Source: Bradyrhizobium sp. AZCC 1610 (GTDB lineage: Bacteria; Pseudomonadota; Alphaproteobacteria; Rhizobiales; Xanthobacteraceae). From it: 64,000 nucleotides of DNA. The notes under the pieces were generated by a model. That model was not told the origin of the DNA, made no database searches, and was given only the letters and a program-made list of their open reading frames with translations. The position numbers and the translations under genes are program-made. The DNA is taken from assembly GCF_036924515.1 (NCBI RefSeq), contig NZ_JAZHRR010000001.1, positions 2,079,001-2,143,000 on the forward strand. Direction: 5' to 3'. Positions within the stretch are counted from its first letter, which is position 1. Each line of letters opens with the position of its first letter. Shown piece after piece: positions 27,160 through 48,566 of the stretch.

Positions 27160-27801
27160 GCTGACGAGCTCTTGGGCGCTGAAGATCATGTCTGATATGG
27201 GATAGTTCTGGCGTTCGGCGCCGTTGAGGATCGTGCGCACCACGAGGCTTGCCGGATCGATCCCTGCGGTGATGACGGGGCCGAACGGCCCGTAGCCGTC
27301 AAAACCCTTGGCGCGCGCCCACTGGGCGAAAGTGGCGTCGCGGTTGAGGATGTCGTTGGCGGTGACGTCGTTGACGCAGGTGTAGCCGAAGATGAAGTCG
27401 TCGGCTTCGTCTGCGGAAACGTTGGTGCAGGGCTTTCCGATGACGATGCCGAGTTCGCCCTCATAGGTGGTCTTGCCGTCATAGGAGACGGGACGTTCGA
27501 TTACCGCGCCCGGCCCGGTGACGCTGGTGGTGGCCTTCAGGAGATACAAGGGCTCGGCCGGCTCCGGCTGTTGCAGCTTGGCGGCGAGCGCATGAAAATT
27601 GTTCCAGAGCGCGACGATCTTGGTCGGCTCGGTCGGCGCCAGCACCTCGACGTCGCCGAGCGCCAGGATTTGTCCGCTCGGCTTCGAGCTACCGAACATG
27701 CTGCCGTCATGCACTGATATACCTGATGGCGTGAGCACGCCGAAGCCGGTCTTACCCCGGTAACGGAAGCGAACCCAGTTGGTCACGTTACGCTGCAGCA
27801 T
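27013..27801 (-). CDS. fumarylacetoacetate hydrolase family protein
   Basis: A 262-residue protein from ATG 27801, which overlaps the stop of the upstream ketopantoate reductase-like gene by ATGA-type overlap. Family marks are the metal-binding YEGELGIVIGKPC, the strand GYTCVNDVTANDI, then AKGFDGYGPFGPVI and the end segment LLPGDLIACGTSVGIGVMK. Members are Mg-dependent hydrolases, decarboxylases or hydratases that cleave or tautomerise beta-diketo acids, such as 5-oxopent-3-ene-tricarboxylate. The partner reductase suggests a small keto-acid pathway. The last 49 codons are duplicated at 21355-21502. Confidence 0.85.
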   Translation of the reverse strand: MLQRNVTNWVRFRYRGKTGFGVLTPSGISVHDGSMFGSSKPSGQILALGDVEVLAPTEPTKIVALWNNFHALAAKLQQPEPAEPLYLLKATTSVTGPGAVIERPVSYDGKTTYEGELGIVIGKPCTNVSADEADDFIFGYTCVNDVTANDILNRDATFAQWARAKGFDGYGPFGPVITAGIDPASLVVRTILNGAERQNYPISDMIFSAQELVSKISHDMTLLPGDLIACGTSVGIGVMKEPVNTVTVAIDGIGELTNEFRQ

Positions 27802-28823
27802 CACGCCACCGCCGGAATTTTTGCTTCCGGCGCCGGAAGCACGGTTCCGTCGTAGAGGCCGGCGATCTTGGCGCGCTGCGCGACCAGCGCCAGCACCGCA
27901 TCCAGCGACGGCGTCGGTATCCTGGTCAGCCGTCCCATTTCCTGAACCACGGTCACCAGCGGATCGATTTCCATCGGACGGCTGCGCTCGAGATCCTGCA
28001 GCATCGAGGTCTTGTGCGCGCCGACCTTGCGCGCGCCCTCGATGCGCCGCTCGACATCGACGCGGAATTTGACGCCGAAGGATTCGGCGATCGCCTGCGC
28101 CTCCAGCATGATCGCCTTCGACAGCGCGCGGGTGGGGGGATCGGAGCAGATCACGTCGAGGGTGGCATGCGTGAGCGCGCTGACCGGGTTGAGGCAGACA
28201 TTGCCCCACAGCTTGAGCCAGATCTCGTCGCGAATGCGGTCGAGAACGGGGGCCTGCATGCCGGCCTTGGTGAACACTTCCGAAAGCCGCTGGACGTCCT
28301 CGGTGATCTCGCCGGAGGGCTCGCCGAGCGGGAAGCGGTCGCCATAGACGTGACGAATCACGCCGGGCGCCTCGATCTCGGTGGCGGGGTAGACGATGCA
28401 GCCGATCGCGCGCTGCGGCGTCAGTTCGCGCCACTGCCGTCCGCCGGGATCGATGCTCTCCAGCGTCGAGCCCTCAAGGGCGCCGCCATGCTTGTAGAAG
28501 TACCAGTAGGGGATGCCGTTGACGGCGGTGACGACGCGAGTCTGCGGCCCGAGCAGCGGCTGCATCTGCTCCAGCACGCCGGTGATCGAGTGCGCCTTCA
28601 GGCAGATGATGACGAAATCCTGCACCCCGAGTTCGGCCGGGTTGTCGGTGCAGCGCGGATGCACCACGCGCTCTTCGTCACCGATCAGGAGCTTGAGCCC
28701 ATTGGCGCGCATGGCCGCGAGATGCGCGCCGCGCGCCACCAGGCCGACATCGACGCCCGCGCGCGCGAGTTGCACACCGATATAGCCGCCGATCGCGCCG
28801 GCGCCGTAGATACAGATTTTCAT
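27801..28823 (-). CDS. 2-dehydropantoate 2-reductase family (ApbA/PanE) protein
   Basis: A 340-residue NADP-binding reductase. The N-terminus KICIYGAGAIGGYIGVQLAR is the Rossmann G-x-G-x-x-G motif of the ketopantoate reductase family. Later parts include VVTAVNGIPYWYF, LKLWGNVCLNPVSALTHATLD (family catalytic Lys/Asn region) and the helical C-terminal domain. True PanE makes pantoate for coenzyme A, but many paralogues act on other 2-keto acids. Here it is fused in operon with a FAH-family enzyme, so a catabolic role is more likely than vitamin synthesis. A second paralogue is at 48567-49628. Confidence 0.85.
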   Translation of the reverse strand: MKICIYGAGAIGGYIGVQLARAGVDVGLVARGAHLAAMRANGLKLLIGDEERVVHPRCTDNPAELGVQDFVIICLKAHSITGVLEQMQPLLGPQTRVVTAVNGIPYWYFYKHGGALEGSTLESIDPGGRQWRELTPQRAIGCIVYPATEIEAPGVIRHVYGDRFPLGEPSGEITEDVQRLSEVFTKAGMQAPVLDRIRDEIWLKLWGNVCLNPVSALTHATLDVICSDPPTRALSKAIMLEAQAIAESFGVKFRVDVERRIEGARKVGAHKTSMLQDLERSRPMEIDPLVTVVQEMGRLTRIPTPSLDAVLALVAQRAKIAGLYDGTVLPAPEAKIPAVA

Positions 28824-28915: not shown

Positions 28916-29347
28916 TCAAGCCGACGCGGCCAGCTTGAAGGGCGTTGCTTCGTCGTCGAACGCGTTGAAGATATCGCGAATGCTGATGACGCCGATCAGG
29001 CTGTAATTGTCGATCACAGGCACGTGGCGGATGTGGTGCTTGCTCATGAGGTGACGGACATGCTCGAGCGTATCCGTCGATGTGCAGGAGACGAGCTGTT
29101 GCACTGAAATAAATTGCGAAACGCGCATATTCACCCCGGCCGCGCCGTGCTCGGCGATGGCGCGCACCACGTCACGTTCGGTGAACATGCCGACCGCCGT
29201 GTTGCCCTCGGTGCGGACCACATCCTTGACGACCAGCGCGCTGATATTGCTGGAGCGCATCAGTTGCGCTGCAATGGCGACGGTCTCGTTCATGCGAACC
29301 GTTGCGACACGGGCGACTTTCTTGCGCAGAATATCTCCGACTTGCAT
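28916..29347 (-). CDS. two-CBS-domain protein of the oxalate regulon
   Basis: A 143-residue protein made of two CBS domains. The first is around residues 10-65 (IAAQLMRSSNISALVVKD, GMFTERDVVRAI) and the second around 75-135 (VRHLMSKHHIRHVPVIDNYS, LIGVISIRDIFNAF). Stand-alone CBS pairs bind adenine nucleotides and sense energy or nucleotide state. ATG 29347 is preceded by GGAGGTCGCC. A copy of the regulon palindrome lies 34 bases upstream of the start (29382-29398), which places this gene under the same control as oxlT, oxc and frc. Its target protein is not known. Confidence 0.85.
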   Translation of the reverse strand: MQVGDILRKKVARVATVRMNETVAIAAQLMRSSNISALVVKDVVRTEGNTAVGMFTERDVVRAIAEHGAAGVNMRVSQFISVQQLVSCTSTDTLEHVRHLMSKHHIRHVPVIDNYSLIGVISIRDIFNAFDDEATPFKLAASA

Positions 29348-29381
29348 GGCGACCTCCTTGGGTGAAGCATTACCTCAAGTC

Positions 29382-29398
29382 TGGTATACATAATGCCA
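29382..29398 (-). promoter_or_regulatory. oxalate-regulon operator, site a (CBS gene)
   Basis: TGGTATACATAATGCCA, the 17-bp palindrome TGGYAT-N5-ATRCCA. On the minus strand a TTGACA -35 box (29401-29406) precedes it by two bases. A weak -10 (CAGACT) follows 17 bases after the -35, so the palindrome fills the promoter spacer. Binding here would block RNA polymerase. Confidence 0.75.
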
Positions 29399-29556
29399 AT
29401 TGTCAACACGCCTGGCGGTGGAAATCTTTCGCCGGGATGGAGATAAATAGGCAGTATTACTGACGTTCTTGAGGTGCAGCATCTCAGCTGCAGGAGGGTG
29501 AGCCGCCCCTGCAGCGGTTCGGAAAACGCTCAGGTATACCAGAGGCCGTCCAGGCA

Positions 29557-29592
29557 AAAGAAAACGCGCCCATCCCGGAGGATGAGCGCGCT
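29557..29592 (-). terminator. intrinsic terminator after oxlT
   Basis: An 11-bp stem with one mismatch (CGCGCCCATCC / GGATGAGCGCG) and a four-base loop. On the minus strand a TTTTCTTTT run follows the stem, downstream of the oxlT stop at 29620. Confidence 0.8.
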
Positions 29593-29619
29593 TGTTTCGA
29601 ACAACCAATCCGGTTCGGA

Positions 29620-30915
29620 TCAGGCCGCCATCTGCGATTTGGCGACCACCGTTTTGCGCCACGGCTTGAGCACCGTGATCGCCAGCAGCGAGGCCAGGAT
29701 ATTCGCACCGGCCGCGATGATGAACACGTTGTCCCAATTGCCCGAAGACTGCTGCATGTAGTTCGCCACCGGCACCAGCAGCGCCGCCGTACCCTTTGCC
29801 GTATAGAGCAGGCCGGCATTGGTGGTCGCGAACTTCGAACCGAAGGTATCGGTGCAGGTCGAGGGGAAGAGGGAGTAGATCTCGCCCCAGGCAAAGAACA
29901 CGAAGCCCGACAGCAGCACAAACCACACCGGATCGTGGCCCAGCATGTAGAGGCCCCAGATGCCGATGCCTTCCATGCCGAACGCGATGAACATGGTGTT
30001 CTCGCGGCCGATCATGTCCGAGATCCAGCCGAAGAAGGGGCGGGTCAGGCCGTTGAGGACGCGATCGATGGTGGCGGCGAACGTCACTGCCGTCATCGTC
30101 ACCGCCATCAGCGTGACCGGCACGCTGTCGACCTTCCAGTCGACGGCGATCGGCTTGAGGTTGGCGGTGACCATCAATCCGCCGGCGCCGACGATCACGA
30201 ACATGAAATACATCAGCCAGAAGATCGGCTGGCGGATCACCTCGGTCGGCTGATAATTGCGGCGGGTCTGGATGATGTTGGCGTTCTGCGTCACCGCGGG
30301 CACTTGTCCGGTTTTCGGCGAGAACAGGAAGAAGGCGAGGATCACGATGATGATGCCCTGTCCGAGACCGAAATAGAGGAAGGTGGTCTGGAAGCCGGAG
30401 TCCTTGATCATCGCCTGGATCGGCGCGACCGTCAGCGCCGAGCCCGCGCCGAATCCGGCGGCGGTGATGCCGGCGGCGAGGCCGCGCTTGTCGGGAAACC
30501 ATTTCAGCGCGTTGCCGACGCAGGTGCCGTACACGCCACCGGCGCCAATGCCGGCGATGATCATGCCGAGATAGAAGCCGTTGAGGGTGGTCGCCTGGGC
30601 GTTGATCGCCCATCCGATGGCGCAGAGGATGCCGCCGACGAGCACGACGATGCGCGGGCCGTATTTATCGACGAACCATCCCTCGACCGGCACCAGCCAG
30701 GTCTCGAACAGCACGAAAAGCGTAAATGCCCACTGGATCGACGCGCGATCCCATCCGAATTTCTTCTGGATGTCGGGGACGAAGAAAGTCCAACCATATT
30801 GATAATTGGCGATCATCACCATCGCGGCGACGCCGATGGCCAATTGGGTCCAGCGATAGGCATCGCTGACTCGGGCCGCCGCGACGGGGGCCGCTCCTTG
30901 CACTGTGTCCGTCAT
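29620..30915 (-). CDS. oxlT: oxalate:formate antiporter-like MFS transporter
   Basis: A 431-residue MFS carrier from ATG 30915, with GGAGGAAAA upstream; an earlier in-frame start at 30990 falls across the promoter. Twelve helices are apparent. OxlT-type features are the first helix followed by YQYGWTFFVPDIQKKFGW, the glycine-rich IIAGIGAGGVYGTCVGNALK, and VLNGLTRPFFGWISDMIGREN in the central loop. OxlT brings oxalate into the cell in exchange for formate, the end product of oxalyl-CoA decarboxylation, and so helps proton-motive force. It lies in the same regulon as oxc and frc, which supports the substrate call. A palindrome lies 50 bases upstream. Confidence 0.85.
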   Translation of the reverse strand: MTDTVQGAAPVAAARVSDAYRWTQLAIGVAAMVMIANYQYGWTFFVPDIQKKFGWDRASIQWAFTLFVLFETWLVPVEGWFVDKYGPRIVVLVGGILCAIGWAINAQATTLNGFYLGMIIAGIGAGGVYGTCVGNALKWFPDKRGLAAGITAAGFGAGSALTVAPIQAMIKDSGFQTTFLYFGLGQGIIIVILAFFLFSPKTGQVPAVTQNANIIQTRRNYQPTEVIRQPIFWLMYFMFVIVGAGGLMVTANLKPIAVDWKVDSVPVTLMAVTMTAVTFAATIDRVLNGLTRPFFGWISDMIGRENTMFIAFGMEGIGIWGLYMLGHDPVWFVLLSGFVFFAWGEIYSLFPSTCTDTFGSKFATTNAGLLYTAKGTAALLVPVANYMQQSSGNWDNVFIIAAGANILASLLAITVLKPWRKTVVAKSQMAA

Positions 30916-30965
30916 TTTTCCTCCAAGGGGCTGTTCTATCGGTACCCGACAGCTCCATGAAAGTC

Positions 30966-30982
30966 TGGTATATGTTATGCCA
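30966..30982 (-). promoter_or_regulatory. oxalate-regulon operator, site b (oxlT)
   Basis: TGGTATATGTTATGCCA, matching the shared palindrome. The -35-like TTGTCT (30985-30990, minus strand) is two bases away. The -10-like CAGACT is at the same spacing as in site a. Confidence 0.75.
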
Positions 30983-31047
30983 GTAGACAAGAGAAAATTT
31001 TACACAGGCTGTGAAAATTTCGATTTCCGCAGAAGTGCTGTGAGCAC

Positions 31048-31077
31048 AAAAAGGCCGCGCAGTTTGCGCGGCCTTTT
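31048..31077 (-). terminator. intrinsic terminator after tctA
   Basis: A perfect 12-base inverted repeat AAAAGGCCGCGC / GCGCGGCCTTTT around a five-base loop, with a T5 run on the minus strand. It lies 38 bases beyond the tctA stop and isolates the transporter operon from the oxlT promoter. Confidence 0.85.
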
Positions 31078-31114
31078 CTCCCGGAAGCCTAACTAAATCG
31101 TTGTTTCGCCGCGG

Positions 31115-32635
31115 TTAAGCGACACTGCCGCCCGGCCCGGCGACCATACTCCGCAAGCGGGTATAGCCTTCCTGGATGACCGACCAGAACAGTGCGATCA
31201 AGCCCAGGATCATGATCGTGCTGACGAGCGGGTTGGAAAGGAATATGCCAAACGAACCCTGGGATCCCAGAAGCGACTGCCGGAAGGCCTCTTCCGCCTT
31301 GTCGCCGAGCACGATGGCCAGCACCAGCGGGGCGAGGGGATAATTGCACTTCTTGAGCAGATAGCCGACCACGCCGAACACCAGCATCAGCATGACGTCA
31401 AACGTAGAGCTGTGGACCGAATAGGCGCCGATCGCGCAGAGCACCAGGATCAGCGGTGCAATGATGCTGAAGGGCACGCGCAGGATCGCCGCGAAAATCG
31501 GCACGCAAGTCAGCACGACAATCAGGCCGACGAGGTTGCCGAGATACATCGAGGCGATCAGGCCCCAGACGAATTCCTTCTGTTCGACGAACAGCATGGG
31601 TCCGGGTTGCAGACCCCAGATCAACAGGCCGCCCAGCAACACCGCAGCCGTCGGCGAGCCGGGCACGCCGAGCGAGAGCATCGGAAGCAAGGCCGCGGTG
31701 CCCGCGGCGTGGGCCGCGGTTTCCGGCGCGACCACACCTTCGATCTCGCCTTTGCCGAAGTTCTTGCCGTTCTTCGCCACGCGCTTGGCGATGCCGTAAC
31801 TCATGAACGAGGCCGGAGTAGCGCCCGCCGGCGTGATGCCCATCCAGCAGCCGATGAAGCAGGAGCGCAACGAGGTCATCCAGTATTTTGGCAATTCCTT
31901 CCAGGTCTGCAGCACGACCCGCAAGTTGATCTTGGCCTTGCCGCCGCGGAAGGCGAGCCCTTCCTCCATGGTCAGAAGGATTTCACCAATGCCGAACAGC
32001 CCGATCACGGCAATGAGGAAGTCGAAGCCGTTGAGCAGATGGGTGACGCCGAACGTCAGCCGCAACTGCCCGGTGATGGAATCAAGCCCTACAGCGGCGA
32101 GCGCAAAGCCGATCATCATCGCCGCGATGGTCTTGAACGGCGGCTCCTTGCTTAGGCCCACGAAGCTGCAGAATGCGAGGAAATACACCGCGAATTTTTC
32201 CGCTGGGCCAAATTGCAGCGCAAAGCTGGCGACCAGGGGAGCGACCAGCGTGATCATGATCACGGCGAACAGCGCGCCGACGAAGGATGAGGTGAAGGCG
32301 GCGGTCAGTGCCTCGCCGGCCTTGCCCTGCTGTGCCATCGGATAGCCGTCGAACGTCGTGGCTACCGACCACGGTTCTCCGGGTATGTTGAAGAGAATTG
32401 AGGTGATCGCGCCGCCGAACAGCGCACCCCAATAGATGCACGACAACATGATGATGGCCGACGTCGGCGACATGCTGAATGTCAGCGGCAGCAGGATGGC
32501 AACGCCATTGGCGCCGCCCAGTCCCGGAAGCACGCCGATGATGACACCGAGCACGATGCCGAGAACCATCAGCATGATGTTGTACGGCTGCAGCGCGACC
32601 GCAAAGCCGTGAAACAGATTGACGAGTTCTTCCAT
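31115..32635 (-). CDS. tctA: tripartite tricarboxylate transporter large permease TctA
   Basis: A 506-residue protein with about eleven to twelve hydrophobic helices, from ATG 32635 (an upstream in-frame start at 32683 overlaps tctB). Signature stretches are GVLPGLGGANGVAILLPLTF near residue 40 and, in the second half, KNGKNFGKGEIEGVVAPETA then AHAAGTAALLPMLSLGVPGS. In this family two such repeats form the transport path. It works with TctB and the periplasmic receptor TctC to import carboxylates with a sodium or proton gradient. It is the last gene of tctCBA and is followed by a terminator. Confidence 0.9.
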   Translation of the reverse strand: MEELVNLFHGFAVALQPYNIMLMVLGIVLGVIIGVLPGLGGANGVAILLPLTFSMSPTSAIIMLSCIYWGALFGGAITSILFNIPGEPWSVATTFDGYPMAQQGKAGEALTAAFTSSFVGALFAVIMITLVAPLVASFALQFGPAEKFAVYFLAFCSFVGLSKEPPFKTIAAMMIGFALAAVGLDSITGQLRLTFGVTHLLNGFDFLIAVIGLFGIGEILLTMEEGLAFRGGKAKINLRVVLQTWKELPKYWMTSLRSCFIGCWMGITPAGATPASFMSYGIAKRVAKNGKNFGKGEIEGVVAPETAAHAAGTAALLPMLSLGVPGSPTAAVLLGGLLIWGLQPGPMLFVEQKEFVWGLIASMYLGNLVGLIVVLTCVPIFAAILRVPFSIIAPLILVLCAIGAYSVHSSTFDVMLMLVFGVVGYLLKKCNYPLAPLVLAIVLGDKAEEAFRQSLLGSQGSFGIFLSNPLVSTIMILGLIALFWSVIQEGYTRLRSMVAGPGGSVA

Positions 32636-32667
32636 CCCGATAATCCAATCCTGACTGTGCGTCGTTG

Positions 32668-33165
32668 TTACAGATCGAGCCACTCTTCGACTGGTCCCTT
32701 TGGAAGCGGGACCATGAACCAGCGCTCGAAAATGAAGTAGGTGGCGATGGGCATACCGAACGCGACCGCCAGGACGACGATCCAGTTGTATTTACCCAGC
32801 CATCGCATGAACCATGCGATGAAGACGATCGAGGCGACGTACAGCCCGATGAACGGCATGGAGCCGACATAGATGGCCGTGGGAATAACGACGCTCAGAA
32901 CCTGACGAAGCTGTCCCCATTCCGCGAACAGGCCGTCATTGTCTTCGCGCAGCCCGTGCCACAGATTGATTCCGCTCGAAACGAGGATGAAGATTCCGAT
33001 ATAGAACGGAAAGAACCCGGCGCGGGGTCCTTCGGGACCCCAGTTGATTCCCGCCTTGACGCTGCCCAAGATCACGATCACTCCAAACAGAGCGATCGCT
33101 AGCGTGACGCCTGCTTCCACGAGTTTGTGGGTCGGGCCGGTATTGCTCGAACTTCCTGTTGTCAT
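32668..33165 (-). CDS. tctB: tripartite tricarboxylate transporter small permease TctB
   Basis: A 165-residue membrane protein with four helices, matching the DUF1468/TctB family (PRAGFFPFYIGIFILVSSGI near the start; YVASIVFIAWFMRWLGKYNW later). It sits between tctC and tctA, 32 bases upstream of tctA. TctB is the small permease subunit needed by TctA. No separate promoter is evident. Confidence 0.85.
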   Translation of the reverse strand: MTTGSSSNTGPTHKLVEAGVTLAIALFGVIVILGSVKAGINWGPEGPRAGFFPFYIGIFILVSSGINLWHGLREDNDGLFAEWGQLRQVLSVVIPTAIYVGSMPFIGLYVASIVFIAWFMRWLGKYNWIVVLAVAFGMPIATYFIFERWFMVPLPKGPVEEWLDL

Positions 33166-33250
33166 CGAAACTCCGTGCGGAATCGAGCCTGCGGTACCAG
33201 AGCCCGCCGTCTGCGTTGCTATTCCAGTTCAGTCGATCAGTGCTTTTCGG

Positions 33251-34261
33251 TCAGTTTCCCGGCGCGAGGAAACCGGCGTCTTTCATCAAGACCTGGTGAC
33301 GCTTGTCCTCGACCTCGACCCATTTGGCGTAGTCGGCGCCGGTCAGGAAGGTCGTGTTGAACGCACCGCTTTTCATGAATTCCTGCCACTCCGGAGTGGC
33401 GCGAACCTTCTTGAACAGCTCGACATAGTATTCGACCTGATCCTTGGTGGCCCTGGGCGACATGAAGATGCCGCGCAGCATCAGGTATTCCATGTCGAGA
33501 CCTTCCGACTTGCAGGTCGGAATGTCCTTCCAGGCCTTGCCGTCGGCGATCGGCTCGTCATAGGCCATGCGCTGTGCGTCGAACACGCAGAGCGGGCGCA
33601 GCTTGCCGCCACGCCATTGCGCGACCGCCTCGATCGGATTGTTGACGGTCGAATCGACGTGATTGCCGACGAGCTGAACGGCGACTTCTCCGCCGCCCTT
33701 GTACGGGATGTAGGTGAAGCGGGCGCCGGTGGCCTTTTCGACGGCAACCGTAATGATCTGGTCTTCCTGTTTCGAACCGGTGCCGCCCATCTTGATGCTG
33801 CCGGCGGGAGCGGCCTTCACCGCATCGACGTAATCCTTCACCGTCTTGTACGGCTTGTCGGCGTTGACCCAGAGCACGAATTCGTCGAGCGCCAGCATGG
33901 CGACCGGCGTGAGATCCTTCCAACTGAACGGAATTCCAGTGGCGAGCGGAGTCGTGAAGAGGTTGGAGAGCGTGATGATGATCTTGTGCGGATTGCCGCC
34001 CGATCCCTTGACGTCGAGGAAGCCTTCGCCGCCGGCGCCGCCCGACTTGTTGATGACGACCAGCGGCTGCTTCATCAGATTGTGCTTGGTGACAATGCCC
34101 TGGATGGTGCGCGCCATCTGATCGGCGCCGCCGCCGGTACCGGCGGGAATGATGAATTCAACGGGGCGCACCGGTTCCCATGCGGCAGTCGCAGGAGCTG
34201 CGATTCCGCTGGCGCACAATGCAGCAATCGTCCCGAACGCAAGATATGCAGAACGCTTCAT
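33251..34261 (-). CDS. tctC: tripartite tricarboxylate transporter receptor TctC
   Basis: A 336-residue periplasmic binding protein with a signal peptide ending near PATA-A (residue 27). The TctC fold is seen in RPVEFIIPAGTGGGADQMAR, PLVVINKSGGAGGEGFLDVK and FTYIPYKGGGEVAVQLVGNH. The aspartate/threonine region that contacts the carboxylate is present (KMGGTGSKQEDQ). The ligand is not shown by sequence; the shared operator with oxalate genes makes oxalate or a related dicarboxylate plausible. The promoter-like operator is 351 bases upstream, leaving a long leader. Confidence 0.85.
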   Translation of the reverse strand: MKRSAYLAFGTIAALCASGIAAPATAAWEPVRPVEFIIPAGTGGGADQMARTIQGIVTKHNLMKQPLVVINKSGGAGGEGFLDVKGSGGNPHKIIITLSNLFTTPLATGIPFSWKDLTPVAMLALDEFVLWVNADKPYKTVKDYVDAVKAAPAGSIKMGGTGSKQEDQIITVAVEKATGARFTYIPYKGGGEVAVQLVGNHVDSTVNNPIEAVAQWRGGKLRPLCVFDAQRMAYDEPIADGKAWKDIPTCKSEGLDMEYLMLRGIFMSPRATKDQVEYYVELFKKVRATPEWQEFMKSGAFNTTFLTGADYAKWVEVEDKRHQVLMKDAGFLAPGN

Positions 34262-34340
34262 TTGGTTTCACTCCCGTCGAACTATGGTTACGCCGGTCTT
34301 TGCCGACTTTTAATTTCATCCCGATCAACCTTGTCGGGTA

Positions 34341-34378
34341 TTCATGCACTCATGATCGCTTCATGCACTCATGATCGT
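34341..34378. repeat. tandem 19-bp repeat in the tctC leader
   Basis: Two adjacent copies of TTCATGCACTCATGATCG plus C or T (34341-34359 and 34360-34378), 80 bases upstream of tctC and within its presumed untranslated leader. Each unit holds the palindrome ATCATGAT-like core TCATGA. The role is unknown. Confidence 0.8.
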
Positions 34379-34612
34379 CCTGCTGCAATGGTTTGCCCAT
34401 CGCAGTCAGTTCCAAGCTTGAATTGTACGAGGGTCCCGTTGGAGCGGCATCCGCTCCTTTCGGCCAATGGCAAATTGCGATGCGCAAGAAAAGGGAAGCA
34501 TGCATGCACTGCCCGTCCTCCGCCACATCGCGTTTCGCTGTCCCTTGCGGACTGCACGGCCTATCCCCCCAATGTGCGCTCATGCTTCTTGGGCGTGAGC
34601 TTTTAAGTATTC

Positions 34613-34629
34613 TTGTATATGATATGCCA
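34613..34629 (-). promoter_or_regulatory. oxalate-regulon operator, site c (upstream of tctCBA)
   Basis: TTGTATATGATATGCCA, one mismatch from the consensus half-site. On the minus strand TTGCAC (34632-34637) lies two bases before it and AAGAAT follows at -10 spacing. The direction points to tctC, 351 bases away. Confidence 0.7.
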
Positions 34630-34710
34630 CAGTGCAAATGGTTTTTGCTTCCGATTGCCGCACTGGCCAATTTGTCGCAGATGGGCAGTTTCTCAGCAAT
34701 CGGTTTGCGG

Positions 34711-34743
34711 CAAATGAAAATGGCCCCGGAAACCGGGGCCATT
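34711..34743 (-). terminator. intrinsic terminator after the 45-residue gene
   Basis: An 11-bp perfect stem (AATGGCCCCGG / CCGGGGCCATT) with a three-base loop. TTTTCATTT follows on the minus strand. It lies 73 bases beyond the stop at 34816, so the small gene forms its own transcription unit. Confidence 0.8.
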
Positions 34744-34815
34744 GACCGAAACATTGGTGGAAGGTCGCTCCGCAGCGTGCGCGGATCCGCGCGCCAGATG
34801 CTGCGAAATAAAGCG

Positions 34816-34953
34816 TCAGAGACCAAAATAGGGGAGGTCGCCGTTGCGGACGGCGATACGGCTGCTCGCGGTCAGAAGGCGGTCGATCAAGGCCATCAGG
34901 CGGCCGAACAGGGTGCTGGAGGGAAGGAGGCCGAGGGATGCAGTCTTGGACAT
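34816..34953 (-). CDS. 45-residue protein of the oxalate regulon
   Basis: Starts at ATG 34953 with AGGGGAC seven bases upstream and stops at TGA 34816. The product begins MSKTASLGLLPSSTLFG and continues with an amphipathic stretch (RLMALIDRLLTASSRIA) and a polar end (VRNGDLPYFGL). Third codon positions are strongly GC-biased, as in neighbouring true genes. It is framed by an operator-containing promoter (site d, 57 bases upstream) and its own terminator, strong evidence for a real single-gene unit. It has no signal peptide or long hydrophobic helix. The function is unknown; a small membrane-associated or enzyme-binding peptide acting in oxalate use is a guess. Confidence 0.65.
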   Translation of the reverse strand: MSKTASLGLLPSSTLFGRLMALIDRLLTASSRIAVRNGDLPYFGL

Positions 34954-35010
34954 GGATGTCCCCTTTTTCTGAAGTGGCGGAGCAGTTCCGCCTTTTGATC
35001 AAGGGGATTT

Positions 35011-35027
35011 TTGTATACCAGATACCA
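35011..35027 (-). promoter_or_regulatory. oxalate-regulon operator, site d (45-residue gene)
   Basis: TTGTATACCAGATACCA, one mismatch from TGGYAT-N5-ATRCCA. The TTGTTG box (35030-35035, minus strand) lies two bases before it and AAAAAT follows 17 bases after the box. The layout is the same as at sites a, b and c. Confidence 0.7.
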
Positions 35028-35102
35028 ATCAACAATGGGTTTGTTTGCATAGCAGCAATCGAACGTTTGCAATGCAGCAAACTCACCGCTGGCATTCCAA
35101 AT

Positions 35103-35130
35103 AAAAAGGCCGCCGGAACCCGGCGGCCTT
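35103..35130 (-). terminator. intrinsic terminator after frc
   Basis: An 11-bp perfect stem (AAGGCCGCCGG / CCGGCGGCCTT), a three-base loop and T5 on the minus strand, 22 bases after the frc stop. It closes the gntR-oxc-frc transcript. Confidence 0.85.
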
Positions 35131-35152
35131 GTATTCCAGATTACAACGCGGC

Positions 35153-36430
35153 TTACTCCGCCGCCTGCTTGCGCGGCGGCTCGAGCGCGCCGGAATCGTG
35201 GATCTCAGCTACCTGGTGGTCTGAGAAGCCGAGAACCTGACGCAGGATCTCATCGGTATGCTCGCCGAGCAGCGGCGACCTTGTCACCTCGCTCGGGCTG
35301 TCCGACAGCTTGATCGGATTGCCGACCGAGATGTACTTGCCGCGGGTCGGGTGATCGACCTCGACCACCGTGCCGGTCGCGCGCAGCGACTGGTCCTCGA
35401 TGATCTCCTTCATGGACAGGATCGGGCCGCAGGGGATGTCGTCCTTGTTGAGGATCTCCATCGCCTCGAACTTTGTCTTGGTCATCGTCCACTGCTCAAT
35501 GCGCGCGAAGATTTCGTTGAGCCGCGACAACCGGGCCGGCGGCTTGGCGTAATCCGGATGGGTCTTCCAGCCGGGTTCGCCGATCACGTCGCAGATCTTC
35601 TCCCACACCGGCGCTTGGGTGATGAAGTAGAGGTAGGCGTTGGGATCGGTCTCCCAGCCCTTGCACTTGACGATGCGGCCGGGCTGGCCGCCGCCGGAAT
35701 CATTGCCGGCGCGCGGCACGGCTTCGCCGAACGGAATGCCTTCGCCGTACTGGCTGTATTCCTTCAGCGGACCATGGGCGAGGCGCTGCTGATCGCGCAG
35801 CTTGACGCGGGCGAGATTGAGCACACCGTCCTGCATCGCGGCGGTGACCTTCTGGCCCTGACCGGTCATGGTGCGCTGATAGAGCGCGGTGACGATGCCG
35901 AGCGCCAGATGCAGGCCGGTGCCGCTGTCGCCGATCTGCGCGCCGGTGACGAGCGGCAGCCCGTCGCGAAAGCCGGTGGTCGAGGCCGCGCCGCCAGTGC
36001 ACTGCGCTACGTTCTCATACACCTTGCAGTCTTCGTAAGGTCCGGGACCAAATCCCTTGATCGAGGCCACGATCATCTTCGGGTTGAGGCTGTGGATCTT
36101 CTCCCAGGGGAAGCCCATGCGGTCGAGCACGCCGGGGCCGAAGTTCTCCACCAGCACGTCACAGGTCTTGATCAGCGCGGTCAGGACTTCCTTGCCCTTC
36201 GGGTTCTTGGTGTCGAGCGTGATCGAGCGCTTGTTGTGGTTGAGCATGGTGAAATACAGGCTGTCCACATTGGGAATGTCCTGCAACTGGCCACGCGTGA
36301 TGTCGCCGACGCCGGGGCGCTCGACCTTGATCACGTCTGCGCCGAACCAGGCCAGCAATTGCGTGCAGGTCGGGCCCGACTGAACGTGGGTGAAATCAAG
36401 AATGCGAACGCCCTTGAGCGCCTTTGTCAT
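35153..36430 (-). CDS. frc: formyl-CoA:oxalate CoA-transferase
   Basis: A 425-residue class III CoA transferase, close to the usual 428. It moves CoA from formyl-CoA to oxalate, giving oxalyl-CoA for the decarboxylase. Key parts are the N-terminal [20 protein letters not shown], the catalytic Asp in [32 protein letters not shown], and the glycine loop [20 protein letters not shown] that guards the active site in true formyl-CoA transferases. This loop and the WETDPNAY run separate it from related carnitine-type enzymes. It follows oxc by 63 bases on the same strand and is closed by a terminator. Confidence 0.95.
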
Positions 36431-36493
36431 CGTCTTTGCTCCGTACTGTGTCTGTCTGCCCTGCGCGTGCAGGATGAAACGGGTTGAAGTCGG

Positions 36494-38224
36494 CTATTTC
36501 TTTTTCAGAACGCTTTGCGGATTGAGGTTGCCGATGCGGCCGCTCTCGGAACCGGCCGCCGGATCGATCACGGCGTTGATGAGCGTCGGCTTACCGGAAT
36601 CCATCGCTGCGTTGACGGCGCGCTTGAGCTCGTCGGGCGAGGTGGCGTTGATGCCGACGCCGCCGAACGCTTCCATCATCTTGTCGTAGCGCGAGCCCTT
36701 GACGAACACCGTCGTCGCCGGATCCGAACCGCCCGAATTGACGTCGGTGCCGCGATAGATGCCGTCATTGTTGAAGATGACGATGCAGACCGGAAGCTGG
36801 TAGCGGCAGATGGTCTCGATCTCCATGCCGGAGAAACCGAAGGCCGAGTCGCCCTCGATCGCGAGCACCGGCTTGCCGGTCTCGACGGCGGCTGCGATCG
36901 AATAGCCCATGCCGATGCCCATCACGCCCCAGGTGCCGACGTCGAGCCGCTTGCGCGGCTTGTACATGTCGATGACGCCGCGGGCGAGGTCGAGCGTATT
37001 GGCGCCTTCGTTGACCAGGATGGCGTCGGGCCGCTCCTTGATGATGGTGCGCAGTGCGCCGAGCGCGCCGTGATAATCCATCGGCGAGGCGTTGCTCATC
37101 AGCTTCGGCGCCATCTTGGCGACGTTGTCGTCACGCTTCTTGTTGACGGTGTTGACCCAGTCGGCGGGTGCTGCCGGCCAGCTGCCGCCCATGCCCTCGA
37201 GCAGCGCGGAGACGCAGGAGCCGACATCGCCGACCACCGGGGCCACGATCTCGACGTTGGAATCCATTTCCTTCGGCTCGATATCGATCTGGATGAATTT
37301 CTTCGGCGCATCGCCCCAGGTCTTGCCCTTGCCGTGCGACAGCAGCCAGTTGAGGCGGGCGCCGATCAGCATCACGACGTCGGCGTCCTTCAGCACCGTC
37401 GAGCGCGCCGCACCGGCCGACTGCGCATGCGTGTCGGGCAACAGGCCCTTGGCCATGCTCATCTGGAGGAACGGTACGCCAGTCTTTTCGACGAAGGCGC
37501 GGATCTCGTCGTCGGCCTGTGCATAGGCTGCGCCCTTGCCGAGGATGATGAGGGGGCGCTTGGCACCCTTGAGCACGTCGAGCGCGCGCTTGACGGCTGA
37601 CGGGGCAGGGATCTGGGCGGGCGCTGCGTCGATCACCTTCACCAGCGACTTCGCGCCGGCAGCCGCGTCCATCACCTGGCCGAAAAGTTTTGCGGGCAGG
37701 TCGAGATAAACGCCGCCCGGGCGGCCAGAGACGGCGGCACGGATCGCGCGCGCCAGGCCAATGCCGATGTCGGCGGCGTGCAGGACGCGGAAGGCCGCCT
37801 TGCAGAGCGGCTTGGCGATCGCAAGCTGGTCCATTTCTTCATAGTCGCCCTGCTGCAGGTCGACGATCTCGCGTTCGGAGGAGCCCGAAATCAGGATCAT
37901 CGGGAAGCAGTTGGTGGTGGCGTGGGCCAGCGCCGTGAGGCCATTGAGGAAGCCCGGCGCGGACACGGTGAGACAGACGCCGGGCTTCTTGGTCAAAAAG
38001 CCGGCAATGGAGGCGGCGTAGCCGGCATTCTGCTCGTGGCGGAACGAGAGCACGCGAATGCCCTCGGCCTGCATCATGCGTCCAAGATCCGTGATCGGGA
38101 TGCCCGGCACACCATAGATGGTGTTGATGCCGTTGAGCTTGAGCGCATCGATGACGAGATGAAAGCCATCCGTCAGCTCTTGCTCGATGCCCGGTGCTTC
38201 GGACTTGGTCGCGGTATTCAGCAT
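36494..38224 (-). CDS. oxc: oxalyl-CoA decarboxylase
   Basis: A 576-residue ThDP enzyme that converts oxalyl-CoA to formyl-CoA and CO2. ATG 38224 is preferred, because AGGGAG lies nine bases upstream; ATG 38233 touches that site. The catalytic ThDP glutamate is Glu64 in [11 protein letters not shown]. The ThDP/Mg motif is [16 protein letters not shown] to FNNDGIYRG near residue 450-480. The ADP-activator and CoA-binding regions are in place and length matches the 565-580 family range. It is flanked by the regulator gene (65 bases) and frc (63 bases), all minus strand, giving a gntR-oxc-frc operon. Confidence 0.95.
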
Positions 38225-38289
38225 GGGCTTCATCTCCCTGATCGTTTGTTTCGGACGATTTTTCGTCGTCTTCTGCTGCGAAGTTACGT

Positions 38290-39021
38290 CTAGCTAAACA
38301 GTTCCTGCCCGTGAGCCTCGACGTAGGCGGCAAGGCCCAGCGTGTGGTCGCGTGCGCGTTTCTCGGCGAGTTCGGTGTCGCGTGCTTCCAGCGCTTCGAT
38401 GATGCCCAGATGCTCGGGCAGCGAGGTCGCGGTGCGATCTTTCCGCCCGATGGTCAGTTGCCGGTAGCCGCGCACGTGCAGCAGGATATCGTTGGTCATG
38501 TCGACCAGCACCGGCGACTCCGACAGCGAGATCAGCGCCTGATGGAACGCTATATTGGCCTTGGAGTATTCCTCGACATGATCCTGCGGCAGCCGGTCCT
38601 TGCTAAAATCCTTGAAGAAATCGCGCAGTGCCGTGATGTCCTTCTTGCGTGCGGTGGTCGTGATCAGGCGTGCGGCCATGCTCTCGAGCGCGGCCCAGGC
38701 GCGGATCATGTCGACGATCTCGGTCTTGGTGCGGCGGACCACAATGATGCCGCGACGCGGCACGGTTTTGACGAAGCCATCCTGTTCCAGCATCGCTATG
38801 GCTTCGCGAATAGGGGTGCGGCTGACGCCGAGGCGTTCGGACAGCGCGCGCTCGTCGAGCATCACCTGCTCGGGCGTCGCATAGATGTCCATCTTGAGAA
38901 TGGCTTCCTTCAAGGCCTCGTAGGCCTTGTTCTTGAAGCTCGTCTCGGGCGCAATCCGGACGATTGTAATATCAGCCTCAGCCATGACAGGCGGCGCCTT
39001 GGTTTGTTTACGTGCGGGCAC
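38290..39021 (-). CDS. GntR/FCD-family regulator, probable oxalate-regulon repressor
   Basis: A 243-residue protein from GTG 39021, with GGGAGGAGACGAGTC just upstream; ATG 38985 would lose the site. The winged helix spans about residues 30-95 ([54 protein letters not shown]). The FCD effector domain follows, with metal-binding-type histidines ([42 protein letters not shown]). FCD regulators usually bind organic acids. It is first in the oxc-frc operon and its own promoter carries the palindrome (site e), so autoregulation is expected. It is the best candidate to bind all six sites. Confidence 0.9.
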
Positions 39022-39082
39022 GACTCGTCTCCTCCCTGTTTTTGGAGACGTCTTCTTAGCAGAAGAAACACCCGAATATTTT

Positions 39083-39099
39083 TGGCATACCAAATACCA
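39083..39099 (-). promoter_or_regulatory. oxalate-regulon operator, site e (gntR-oxc-frc)
   Basis: TGGCATACCAAATACCA, consensus in both half-sites. TTGACA on the minus strand (39103-39108) lies three bases before it. It is 61 bases from the regulator start. Confidence 0.8.
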
Positions 39100-39163
39100 G
39101 GATGTCAAGATGCCCGTGTTTTCGATGTTTCTGCGCGATAGTTTGTCTTGACAATCTGATCTC

Positions 39164-39180
39164 TGGCATACCAAATGCCA
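39164..39180 (+). promoter_or_regulatory. oxalate-regulon operator, site f (acyl-CoA synthetase)
   Basis: TGGCATACCAAATGCCA, the most symmetrical copy. On the plus strand TTGACA (39148-39153) lies ten bases before it, so here the palindrome covers the -10 region. It is 25 bases from the ATG at 39206. Confidence 0.8.
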
Positions 39181-39205
39181 TAAAACTAGCCCCAGGAGGA
39201 AGCCT

Positions 39206-41372
39206 ATGTCAAATTCTGCAGATGCGGCCCGCAAGATCGCCGAGCCCAGCGCCCACCAGGCTGTCCGCCGGGTGCTCGATATGGTGAAAGCCGAGAAGCG
39301 CACCAGTCTGACCGCGCCGGAAGGCAAACTGGTGTGCGACGCCTACGGCATCCCGGTTCCGCAGGAAGGCGTGGCGAAGTCCGCCGCCGAGGCCGCCAAG
39401 CTCGCGTCCGCCATGGGTTTCCCGGTGGTGATGAAAATCGTCTCGCCGGACATTCTCCACAAGACCGAAGCCGGCGGCGTCGTGGTCGCGCGTCAAAACC
39501 GCGGCCGATGCGGAAAAGACCTACGAGACCATCCTCGCCAACGCCAGGAAGTATAAGGCTGACGCCAAGATCGAGGGCATCCAGGTCCAGCAGATGCTGG
39601 CCGGCGGCACCGAGGTCATCGTCGGCTCCATCACCGACGGCTCGTTCGGCAAGCTGGTGGCGTTCGGCCTCGGCGGCGTGCTGGTCGAAGTGTTGAAGGA
39701 CATCACCTTCCGCCTCGCGCCCGCCACCAAGGACGATGCCCTGTCGATGCTCGACGGCATCCAGGCCCATGACATGCTCAAGGGCGTGCGCGGCGGCGAT
39801 CCGGTCTCTCGCGATGCGCTGGCCGACATCATCGTCAAGGTGTCGCAGCTCGTCAGCGATTTCCCCGAAATCGTCGAACTCGATCTCAACCCGGTGTTCG
39901 CCACCAAGAAGGACGCGATTGCCGCCGACGTCCGCATCGTCGTCGACTTCGACTACAAGCCGCGCCCGGCGCCGCGCCCGACCGATGAAATCGTCGCAGC
40001 AATGAACCGCATCATGCAGCCGGTGGGCGTGGCCGTGATCGGCGCCTCCGCCGAGGACGGCAAGATCGGCAACTCCGTGATGAAGAACCTGATCAACGGC
40101 GGCTACAAGGGCGAGATCTATCCGATCCATCCCAAGGCCGCAGAAATCCTGGGCTACAAGGCTTACAAGAGCGTCAAGGACGTCCCCGGCGTGATCGACA
40201 CGGCGGTGTTCGCGATCCCCGCGAAGTTCGTTGCAGGCGCGCTGGTCGAATGCGGCGAAAAGAAAATTCCAGGCGCGGTTCTGATTCCGTCGGGCTTTGC
40301 CGAAGCGGGTGCCCCCGAATTGCAGGCCGAGATCGTCGAAGTCGGCAAGAAGTACAACATCCGCCTGATGGGGCCGAACATCTACGGCTTCTATTATACG
40401 CCCGCCAATCTCTGCGCCACGTTCTGCACCGCCTACGACGTCAAGGGTTCGGCGGCGCTGTCGTCGCAGTCCGGCGGCATCGGCATGGCGATCATCGGCT
40501 TCTCGCGCTCGGCCAAGATGGGCGTCTCCGCGATCGTCGGCCTCGGCAACAAGTCCGACATCGACGAGGACGATCTGCTCGCCTTCTTCGAGCAGGATCC
40601 GAACACCGCGATCATCGCGCAGCACTGCGAAGACTTAAAGGACGGCCGCGCCTTTGCGGAAGCCGCCAAGCGCGTCTCCAAGAAGAAGCCGGTGGTGGTG
40701 CTGAAGGCGGGCCGCACATCGGCCGGTGCGAAGGCTGCCTCGTCGCATACCGGCGCGCTCGCCGGCAATGACAAGATCTACGAAGACGTATTCGCTCAGT
40801 CCGGCGTGATCCGTGCCCGGTCCTTGCGGCAATTGCTCGAATTCGCCCGCGGCGTGCCGGTGCTGCCGACGCCGAAGGGCGAGAACATCCTGATCATCAC
40901 CGGTGCGGGCGGTTCGGGCGTGCTGCTCTCGGACTCGGTTGTGGATAACGGCCTGTCGCTGATGACGATGCCGCCGGATCTTGACGCCGCGTTCCGCAAA
41001 TTCATCCCGCCGTTCGGTGCGGCCGGAAATCCTGTGGATATCACCGGCGGCGAGCCGCCGATCACCTACGTCAACACCGTGAAGCTCGGCCTGTCGGACG
41101 AGCGGATCCATTCGCTGATCCTCGGCTACTGGCACACCATCGTGACGCCGCCGATGGTATTCGCCCGCAACATGGTCGAGGTGAAGAAGGAGATGGAGGC
41201 CAAGGGTTTCGTCAAACCGATCGTTGCCTCGCTCGCCGGCGACGTCGAGGTCGAGGAAGCCGCCGAGTATCTCTACCAGAACGGCATCCCGGCCTATGCC
41301 TATTCGACCGAACTGCCGGTCGAGGTGCTGGGCGCCAAGTACAAGTGGGCGCGCGGCGCGGGCCTGCTCTGA
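39206..41372 (+). pseudogene. NDP-forming acyl-CoA synthetase gene with one-base frameshift
   Basis: The first 96 codons (ATG 39206, site CAGGAGGAAGC) read the start of an ATP-grasp domain (EGKLVCDAYGIPVP, GFPVVMKIVSPDILHKTEAGG). Near 39488-39494 the frame shifts by one extra base (GTCGCGCGTC where GTCGGCGTC would give VGVKTAADAEKT). It then continues without a break to 41372 as the rest of the ATP-grasp, CoA-binding and ligase domains (VAVIGASAEDGKIGNSVMKN, SSQSGGIGMAI, SSHTGALAGND). Rejoined, it is about 722 residues, the length of fused acetyl-CoA synthetase (ADP-forming) proteins. In isolation the pieces occupy 39206-39556 and about 39490-41372. It is either a fresh mutation or a sequencing error. 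Operator f places it in the oxalate regulon. Confidence 0.8.
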
Positions 41373-41493: not shown

Positions 41494-42345
41494 ATGAAGC
41501 GAAACGTGATCCGGCGCAAACCGGTCGAGCCGAAATCCGGCGCCGACAATGATTCCGATCCCAGGGATGGCGGCGTCCAGTCGGTTGACCGCGCGCTCTC
41601 CATCATCGAAGTGCTGGCCGAAGACGACGAGGGCTATCGGCTGACCGATCTCGCGGTTCGCACGGGGTTGTCGACCTCGACCGTGCACCGCCTGCTGGCG
41701 ACGCTGGAGAAGCGCCGCTTCGTTCAGTTCGACCGTACCGAATCAAAATGGCATGTCGGCGCGCAGAGCTTTGCGGTCGGTGCGACCTTCACCCGCCGCC
41801 GCAACTTCACGGCGCAGGCGATGCCTTATTTGCGCAAGCTGCGGGATCTTACCCGCGAAACCGCCAATCTCGCCGTGGTCGACGACGAATCCATCATCGT
41901 CCTGACCCGCATGGAAAGCCGCGAGATCATGCGCTCGCTGACCAAGGTCGGGGGCCGCGTCGCCATGGTCGCTTCCGGCGTCGGCAAGGCCGTGCTCGCC
42001 ACCTATTCCGATGCGGACGTCAACGCGATCATCTGCCGCCAGGGCATGCCGCGCCTGACGGAGAAGTCGATCGTGCGGCCGGGCGAGCTGTTCCGGGAGC
42101 TCGAGGCGATCCGGCGCCAGGGCTATGCGGTCGACGATGAGGAGGCGCGCATGGGGCTGCGCTGCGTCGCCGCCGTCGTCTACAGCGACTGCAGCGAGCC
42201 GCTGGCGGCGATTTCCGTCTCCGGCATGACCTCGCGCGTCACCGAGGAGCGTGTGCCCGAGCTCGGAAAAATCGTGCGCGACGTCGCGGCGGAGCTGACG
42301 GTTGCGCTCGGTGGCGTGATGCCAGAGGCGAAATCGCTCACATGA
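41494..42345 (+). CDS. IclR-family transcription regulator
   Basis: A 283-residue protein with an N-terminal helix-turn-helix (VDRALSIIEVLAEDDEGYRL, TDLAVRTGLSTSTVHRLLAT) and the IclR effector domain (ANLAVVDDESIIVLTRMES, ASGVGKAVLATYSD, GYAVDDEEARMGLRCVAAVV). IclR proteins control degradation of aromatics, glyoxylate and related acids. It lies directly after the oxalate regulon but behind a terminator and without the 17-bp palindrome. A role in oxalate or glyoxylate control is possible but not shown. It has a short arginine-rich N-terminal extension. Confidence 0.9.
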   Translation: MKRNVIRRKPVEPKSGADNDSDPRDGGVQSVDRALSIIEVLAEDDEGYRLTDLAVRTGLSTSTVHRLLATLEKRRFVQFDRTESKWHVGAQSFAVGATFTRRRNFTAQAMPYLRKLRDLTRETANLAVVDDESIIVLTRMESREIMRSLTKVGGRVAMVASGVGKAVLATYSDADVNAIICRQGMPRLTEKSIVRPGELFRELEAIRRQGYAVDDEEARMGLRCVAAVVYSDCSEPLAAISVSGMTSRVTEERVPELGKIVRDVAAELTVALGGVMPEAKSLT

Positions 42346-42652: not shown

Positions 42653-43012
42653 TTGGCGTCCTTCGAGATATCTCGTCGTCCGTTTCATGGATGGCCTCCA
42701 TTTTTGCGGCCTGCATCCGCAAATCCCGACGGTGCAGAACTTCGCACCTTCGCCGAAGCTACAGTCCATGCGCGCGGAGGGCTATGCAAAATACGACAAA
42801 CTAACCTGGGAGGGAATCGCCGCAGCGAATAAGCGGCAGCGTGACTGCCCTAACTGATTTGGCATTGTGGGCTTCCAAGCGGTTTGGAGAAAGCCTACCA
42901 TCGCGTTAGGTGAAAATTTGTTGAGGGCATCACTGACTCCGACAGCTTTGACCAGATGATGCACCGATCGGATGTCCCTGACGAGATAACTCACCGAGAT
43001 CGTGGGGGGCTG

Positions 43013-46150: not shown

Positions 46151-46286
46151 TTTGCGGTCCGTCATTGCCCGCCAAGGGAAATTAGCTCTGGCGGCGAGAG
46201 CCCCGACATCGCTATATCCATCCATCGCTGCCCACGGCGCGGCTTCGAGGGACGATGTCCTCCGATTCAACGATTGGGGAAAAGTC

Positions 46287-48412: not shown

Positions 48413-48566
48413 ACCCAGTCCGAATTTGGTCAGAAGCTCACCTCTTGGGAATGACCGCTTTTGGTGGCGGACGGTTGGCAGGGCCTCTCGATCCGCTAGA
48501 CTGTCCTGCAACGGATGAGCGGACGCGGTTGCGTCGTCTGCCGCTAAGAAAATGTCGGGGGGAAGC

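Follow-up and report, generated by a model that had tools for sequence, protein, structure and literature searches.

A shared palindromic operator probably joins transport, formate dehydrogenase and succinyl-CoA synthetase genes to an oxalate regulon in Bradyrhizobium

Soil and plants contain oxalate in abundance, and a link has been drawn between its use by Bradyrhizobium and growth on arabinose. We asked which genes besides oxc, frc and oxlT answer to the regulator of this pathway, and which protein that regulator is, in a 64,000-nucleotide stretch of the genome of Bradyrhizobium sp. AZCC 1610 (contig NZ_JAZHRR010000001.1, positions 2,079,001 to 2,143,000; the whole stretch is called the window below, and its own numbering is used), where copies of a 17-bp palindrome, TGGYAT-N5-ATRCCA, lie upstream of an oxalate gene cluster and several of its neighbors. 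What was observed directly is where the sites lie, how far they are conserved and that they co-occur with the regulator gene; from this we conclude that a single locally encoded GntR-family repressor of the FCD subfamily very probably runs the whole oxalate regulon through this operator, distant fds and sucCD genes included.

A pattern scan of the window finds the palindrome in exact form at 29382, 30966, 39083 and 39164, and with one mismatch at 34613 and 35011, where TTG replaces TGG in one half-site. An earlier note on this DNA, made from its letters, had placed six palindromes at these positions, and all six are there, four exact and two with one mismatch. The putative operators are as follows.

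29382..29398, minus strand: operator of cbs-panE; exact, with TTGACA 2 bases upstream
30966..30982, minus strand: operator of oxlT; exact
34613..34629, minus strand: operator of tctCBA; one mismatch, 352 bp from the tctC start
35011..35027, minus strand: operator of the 45-residue gene; one mismatch
39083..39099, minus strand: operator of gntR-oxc-frc, in the divergent gntR/acs region; exact
39164..39180, plus strand: operator of acs; exact

Read in the direction of the gene, a TTGNNN box precedes the sites at 29382, 30966, 34613 and 35011 by 2 bases and that at 39083 by 3, the same spacings (2, 2, 2, 2, 3) as had been noted before; at 39164 a TTGACA stands 10 bases upstream. When up to two mismatches are allowed the window holds 17 palindrome matches vs 4.77 expected (standard deviation 2.30; the maximum of 100 shuffles was 11). 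The genome, a single contig of 7.75 Mb, has six exact palindromes, four of them within the window, and no exact match to the reversed pattern; base composition predicts 0.55–0.84 exact sites genome-wide at 66–62% GC, and the window's own GC content of 61.3% would move that expectation slightly above 0.84, still about one. Chance palindromes are ruled out by the shuffles and the reversed-pattern controls.

The genome's other two exact sites precede fdsGB-fdsA and sucCD. The former is about 47 bp upstream of a gene for an FdsGB fusion, which is followed by fdsA (formate dehydrogenase alpha, TIGR01591, 718 bits vs 666; a formate dehydrogenase of the NAD type), and the latter sits between mdh and sucC-sucD-sucA. 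In same-genus genomes the site is exact at 17 of 30 fds loci and has one mismatch at seven more, and an exact site stands 69–76 bp before the sucC start codon at 29 of 30 loci. The exception is genome G015, where sucC is present twice and an exact site precedes the second copy by 225 bp; at about 4125 of its locus L196 that second sucC is divergent from an iclR-like gene which, by eye, resembles the iclR gene that follows acs in the window. Within the window's genus, every one of the 98 genomes sampled carries 2–10 sites, for a total of 607 vs 35 for the reversed control. The claim that the regulon is wider than oxc, frc and oxlT is supported; the set first proposed was incomplete, and panE, fdsGB-fdsA and sucCD are added to it here.

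Conservation of the sites near oxc and frc in relatives, on which the earlier note had staked its case, was assessed in the best 80 of 592 oxc loci, taken from named genomes with up to 10 kb per flank; this sample holds close Oxc only and is biased toward Hyphomicrobiales. The closest loci among named genomes are from Bradyrhizobium, with Oxc 97–99% identical in the first four listed. The 80 loci contain 168 exact sites in 1.588 Mb and none of the reversed pattern, so the sites are indeed kept. Where cluster genes match at the protein level in these loci, the DNA is free of exact sites (gntR and oxlT were excluded, as their queries held leader sequence). Upstream of individual genes the site is exact in 21 of 23 cases for cbs and 55 of 56 for acs, whose upstream region is usually common to gntR; for oxlT it is exact in 18 and has one mismatch in 11 of 33, and for tctC the figures are 10 and 11 of 36. 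These counts bear out the assignment of tctCBA, cbs and acs to the oxalate set. The gntR gene near oxc has a site in its own upstream region as well (exact in 57 and one-mismatch in 11 of 78), although the gntR and acs upstream regions often include the same two sites. Upstream of the 45-residue gene the site has one mismatch in 5 of 32 cases and two in 27, with none at up to two mismatches in the reversed control; for panE, mostly the second gene of its unit, an exact upstream site is found in one of nine. Over all genes the reversed controls reached two mismatches in three cases and never fewer. The TTG also keeps its place: where the site has up to two mismatches, the distance from TTG to site is exactly 2 bases in 22 of 22 cbs, 29 of 30 oxlT and 19 of 22 tctC promoters, against a background TTG frequency of 1.15% per position. 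The most frequent site center, TTGGT (68 of 168), yields an overlapping TGGTATRCCA. As a separate observation, loci L020 (19000-20388), L021 (19666-21009) and L053 (18822-20132) have a second MFS gene, oxlT-like by eye, and a one-mismatch site (TGGGATATAGTATACCA or TGGAATATAATATACCA) precedes it in all three.

The genes that these sites precede, with their neighbors, are listed below.

38290..39021, minus strand: GntR/FCD regulator, 243 aa; likely GTG start; Pfam GntR and FCD; orthologues aligned
36494..38233, minus strand: oxc, oxalyl-CoA decarboxylase; TIGR03254 at 1025 bits, cut-off 739
35153..36430, minus strand: frc, formyl-CoA:oxalate CoA-transferase; TIGR03253 at 743 bits, cut-off 504
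34816..34953, minus strand: gene of a 45-residue protein, conserved in 32 relatives
33251..34261, minus strand: tctC, substrate-binding protein of a TTT transporter; PF03401
32668..33165, minus strand: tctB; PF07331
31115..32683, minus strand: tctA open reading frame, with an internal ATG at 32635 as the likelier start; PF01970
29620..30915, minus strand: oxlT, oxalate/formate antiporter; TIGR04259 at 657 bits, cut-off 335 (run from 30918, one codon longer)
28916..29347, minus strand: cbs, CBS-pair protein, 143 aa; PF00571 in two stretches
27801..28823, minus strand: panE-like reductase, candidate oxalyl-CoA reductase; PF02558/PF08546; second gene of the cbs unit
39206..41372, plus strand: acs, NDP-forming acyl-CoA synthetase; Pfam; two frames, 39206-39556 and 39594-41372
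41494-42345: gene of an IclR-type regulator, 3' of acs

The gene identities given earlier hold, by Pfam for TctA, TctB, TctC, CBS and FCD-GntR and by scores above NCBIfam cut-offs for OxlT, Frc and Oxc. Some starts needed revision: gntR most likely begins with the GTG at 39021, oxlT at 30915, and acs at 39206 with a change of frame before 39594. The panE gene, immediately 3' of cbs, falls outside the interval 28916..41372 to which the first reading had confined the cluster. It was matched in 23 of 31 same-genus genomes, in all 23 of them behind cbs with an operator ahead (22 exact, one with one mismatch), and in Mesorhizobium locus L084 an exact site stands directly ahead of panE itself. The acs gene is split across two frames here; in 54 of 55 relatives it reads through in one frame for 709 codons or more, and the 55th ends at a contig edge. 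The frameshift may be a real mutation or a sequencing error, and no second close acs appears to replace this copy, the genome's other two matches being only 32% and 28% identical. The 45-residue protein has 32 relatives near oxc with a common start, of which 30 have 45 residues and two 47; its C-terminus is NGDLPRFGL-like, with a final GL in 31 of the 32, and these two features, the kept length and the GL end, rule out a spurious reading frame. Substitutions at its codon positions 1, 2 and 3 run at 0.245, 0.200 and 0.365 in the 30 equal-length relatives, only a moderate bias. A profile search returned 2338 proteins at E of at most 0.01, and the 120 listed named nothing beyond hypothetical protein; no Pfam or NCBIfam model matched the protein, and a suspected kinship with DUF1127 was not borne out, since none of 14 members matched any Pfam model even at E values as high as 10.

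Two transport systems are found beside oxc, and their distribution differs among loci. tctA is present in 35 of the 80 oxc loci and oxlT in 34 (flanks stop at 10 kb or at a contig end); 13 loci have both, 22 tctA alone, 21 oxlT alone and 24 neither. This distribution supports the TTT system as a putative oxalate carrier in lineages with no oxlT nearby.

Which protein reads the palindrome? The product of the gntR gene belongs to the GntR family, FCD subfamily (PF00392 at 47.9 bits, cut-off 27; PF07729 at 79.5 bits, cut-off 24.3), and reaches no NCBIfam equivalog cut-off. Its residues N156, H160, H204 and H226 are invariant in 35 aligned sequences and fit the metal-site pattern of FCD domains, Asp/Asn-x3-His with two further His, as putative metal ligands. 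We counted exact sites in 149 genomes of the family, without regard to phylogeny, according to the best GntR match. The 37 genomes whose match is 80% identical or more have 1–8 exact sites, with a mean of 4.57; the mean is 3.38 where the best match is 57–59% identical (8 genomes), 0.66 where it is 47–56% (76 genomes), and 0.29 in the 28 genomes without a match at 1e-50, seven of which have 1–2 sites. Over these classes the reversed control gave means of 0.04–0.22. Within genus g20, five genomes that lack gntR have 0, 0, 0, 0 and 1 sites and the sole genome that bears it has 5; in genus g40 the gntR-free genome has none and the others 1–6. At the oxc loci, all 56 with a gntR of at least 56% identity carry an exact site, and the 18 of 80 loci free of exact sites comprise 16 with a gntR of 45–54% identity and two with no gntR. 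That most gntR-free genomes are without sites argues for the local GntR/FCD protein, the regulator guessed in the earlier note. Genome G146 has two close gntR copies (C1:2192635 and C1:5943156, 89% and 84% identical to the window's) and only 2 exact sites.

These observations are consistent with the following scheme, in which GntR binding, repression, the ligand and what each added gene does in metabolism are proposed from sequence. The TGGYAT half-sites lie 11 bp apart, one helical turn, and for this reason we expect the regulator to bind as a dimer. A GntR/FCD dimer would bind the palindrome inside the promoters and shut them; in the promoters examined the site lies over the spacer or over the start region, where a bound dimer should block polymerase. 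GntR would be released by oxalate or by a CoA thioester derived from it, and the four invariant residues named above would suit a carboxylate ligand bound through a metal in the FCD pocket. Release would then turn on uptake by OxlT and the TTT transporter TctCBA, CoA transfer by Frc and decarboxylation by Oxc, together with the panE-type reductase and its CBS partner, acs, the 45-residue protein, gntR itself and, at a distance, the NAD-type formate dehydrogenase FdsGB-FdsA and the succinyl-CoA synthetase SucCD. The last of these, with Acs, might resupply the CoA thioester that is lost when oxalyl-CoA is reduced or hydrolyzed and is not recycled by Frc, which is a guess on our part. If the scheme is true, one conserved operator yields the gene list of the pathway, oxalate is suggested as the substrate of the TTT transporter, the CBS–PanE pair and the 45-residue protein family gain a role, and succinyl-CoA is indicated as a CoA donor in oxalate assimilation.

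We put the succinyl-CoA part of this scheme more tentatively, at slightly less than even chances: that the oxalate repressor commands succinyl-CoA synthetase, that succinyl-CoA or Acs recharges the thioester drained by CBS–PanE, and that the 45-residue family belongs to the program. The link would be made by either of two routes, an operator placed at the housekeeping mdh-sucCDA genes (as in the window's genus, two g26 genomes and one g20 genome) or a second sucCD copy inside the oxalate cluster. Gene order in other genera gives the wider gene set independent support; we compared six of the 29 plasmid records found. Plasmid pSR-1 of Skermanella rosea is annotated in the order gntR, oxc, frc, an acetate--CoA ligase family gene, sucC, sucD, subunit E of an NAD(P)H-dependent oxidoreductase, fdhF and iclR, and the subunit E protein is 68% identical to the FdsGB of the window's genome. 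Skermanella mucosa has the same order through sucD, where the record ends. Azospirillum ramasamyi has gntR-oxc-frc-sucC-sucD-iclR; A. brasilense has gntR-oxc, an FdsGB-like gene, fdhF and iclR, with frc nearby; and Paracoccus alcaliphilus has oxlT, acs, two sucCD-like pairs and gntR-oxc-frc. The order acs-sucC-sucD-gntR recurs in two Bosea, in Mesorhizobium, in L094 and in G200; in the last of these (L198, 7494-16199) acs, sucC, sucD and gntR are consecutive and a panE lies nearby on the opposite strand. Exact sites number three in Paracoccus, where one separates sucC from gntR, and three in Methylobacterium bullatum; both Azospirillum have one one-mismatch site each, upstream of gntR. Counted independently of the motif, 8 of the 80 oxc loci contain sucC and 10 contain fdsGB.

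A number of findings weigh against a single operator and regulator for all these genes. Half-sites and TTG spacing both vary at the 45-residue gene (TTG is one base away in 13, two bases in one and absent in 18 of 32). panE has no match in 8 of the 31 same-genus genomes, and in oxc loci with room to see it, panE is behind cbs in 6 of 20 and not in 14. Both Skermanella lack a site at up to one mismatch despite the operon. Where the gntR of an oxc locus is only 46–54% identical (45 for two), 16 of 22 loci are without an exact site and 6 have one, and the exact sites are down to 1–2 in genus g28 and in some of g40. Six of the 30 same-genus fds loci have no site at up to one mismatch; elsewhere, among 22 gntR-bearing genomes chosen for comparison, 9 have neither a sucC site nor a second sucC (one of these with 161 bp of upstream sequence), and 3 of the 10 that carry fds have no convincing site. 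The co-occurrence comparison carries no phylogenetic correction, and the argument is built from genome sequences.

Some of these points would also fit a reading in which another FCD-GntR protein with the same DNA preference reads the sucCD and fds sites and the oxalate regulon ends at the cluster. A first search found 38 GntR-relative candidates in this genome, and the seven genomes with sites and no GntR match, like the nine gntR-bearing genomes just described, point the same way. To set against this we have 30 genomes picked with (22) and without (8) gntR. None of the eight gntR-free genomes has a sucC site with fewer than three mismatches, and none has an fds match, whereas among the 22 a sucC site is present in four (three exact, one with one mismatch), a second sucC lies within about 10 kb of gntR in seven, and fds is present in 10, seven with an exact site. 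In G200 the only sucC adjoins gntR behind acs, and in G206 the second sucC is on another contig. Moreover, the housekeeping sucC is free of the site in all seven genomes with a second sucC inside the oxalate cluster, and clusters that unite gntR, oxc, sucCD and fds do exist. We consider a second reader of the distant sites unlikely.

It might also be that GntR acts at the sites as an activator and not as a repressor, since some regulators of its subfamily do activate; GlcC is called an activator in PMC11323563. The geometry of the promoters speaks for repression, as the site starts 2 bases after a -35-like TTG at cbs, oxlT and tctC and begins 5 bases after a TATAAT at fds, and in both arrangements a bound dimer would block polymerase. 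On geometry, then, activation seems improbable.

Lastly, operators of the IclR family may also resemble TGG...CCA palindromes, and an IclR-type protein is encoded just after acs (41494-42345), so that it could be the binder in place of GntR. An iclR gene of at least 55% identity is present in 35 of the 80 oxc loci, all 35 of which have exact sites; the 18 loci without exact sites are all without iclR; close-GntR genomes have a mean of 5.75 sites with iclR vs 4.0 without; and the Skermanella and Azospirillum clusters end in iclR genes. Yet an iclR orthologue (at least 70% identity, searched at 1e-60) is found in just 12 of the 37 close-GntR genomes and the other 25 still have 1–8 sites, 27 of the 80 oxc loci lack iclR within the locus yet show both gntR and exact sites, and no locus has sites without gntR. 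Since those 25 genomes and 27 loci have sites without iclR, it is a frequent companion and is not required, and co-occurrence makes IclR a very improbable binder.

The GntR/FCD repressor that we favor resembles the catabolic FCD GntR regulators, such as LldR, PdhR and GlcC, in its pair of domains, its gene beside a target operon, the site in its own promoter and the short inverted repeat. It differs in that its operator, TGGYAT-N5-ATRCCA, is longer than the family consensus, TNGTNNNACNA (compared by eye), and that its putative targets are an oxalate pathway spread over three genome loci. The cluster likewise resembles the frc-oxc-oxlT catabolism of Oxalobacter and Bradyrhizobium diazoefficiens, with all three products above NCBIfam cut-offs, and departs from it in that tctCBA, cbs-panE, acs, the 45-residue gene, fds and sucCD are added under what would be one operator. 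A panE-type reductase and a formate dehydrogenase accompany the oxalate genes here as in Methylobacterium extorquens, whose enzyme for oxalyl-CoA reduction, described by Schneider in 2012, is reportedly PanE2; unlike that enzyme, the window's PanE is a candidate oxalyl-CoA reductase by family and position. Reduction of oxalyl-CoA to glyoxylate by M. extorquens is mentioned, as cited work, in PMC3720670. The same source records no detectable product from succinyl-CoA and oxalate with E. coli YfdE and Acetobacter UctC, so that the Bradyrhizobium enzyme would need to differ, or Acs and SucCD would act otherwise.

In B. diazoefficiens, according to PMC5996035, the cytoplasmic fraction contains more Frc and more Oxc on arabinose than on mannitol, Oxc is equal on the two sugars in the membrane fraction, and the NuoF-like blr2316 is found only in arabinose cells. 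PMC4070659 gives another set, bll3135-bll3137, and we therefore do not assign blr2316 to the fds operon. No description of a GntR regulator of oxc-frc was found in the open-licence PMC literature, judged by title and the start of the abstract.

Beyond the cluster, the window contains a second panE/ApbA-type reductase gene at 48552-49628. An open reading frame at 42956-43828 covers only positions 2–214 of the 591-position DUF3604 model and is possibly an interrupted gene, and at 46122-47051, 3' of HupE/UreJ-like and PPIC-type genes, an NYN domain is fused to an OST-HTH/LOTUS domain.

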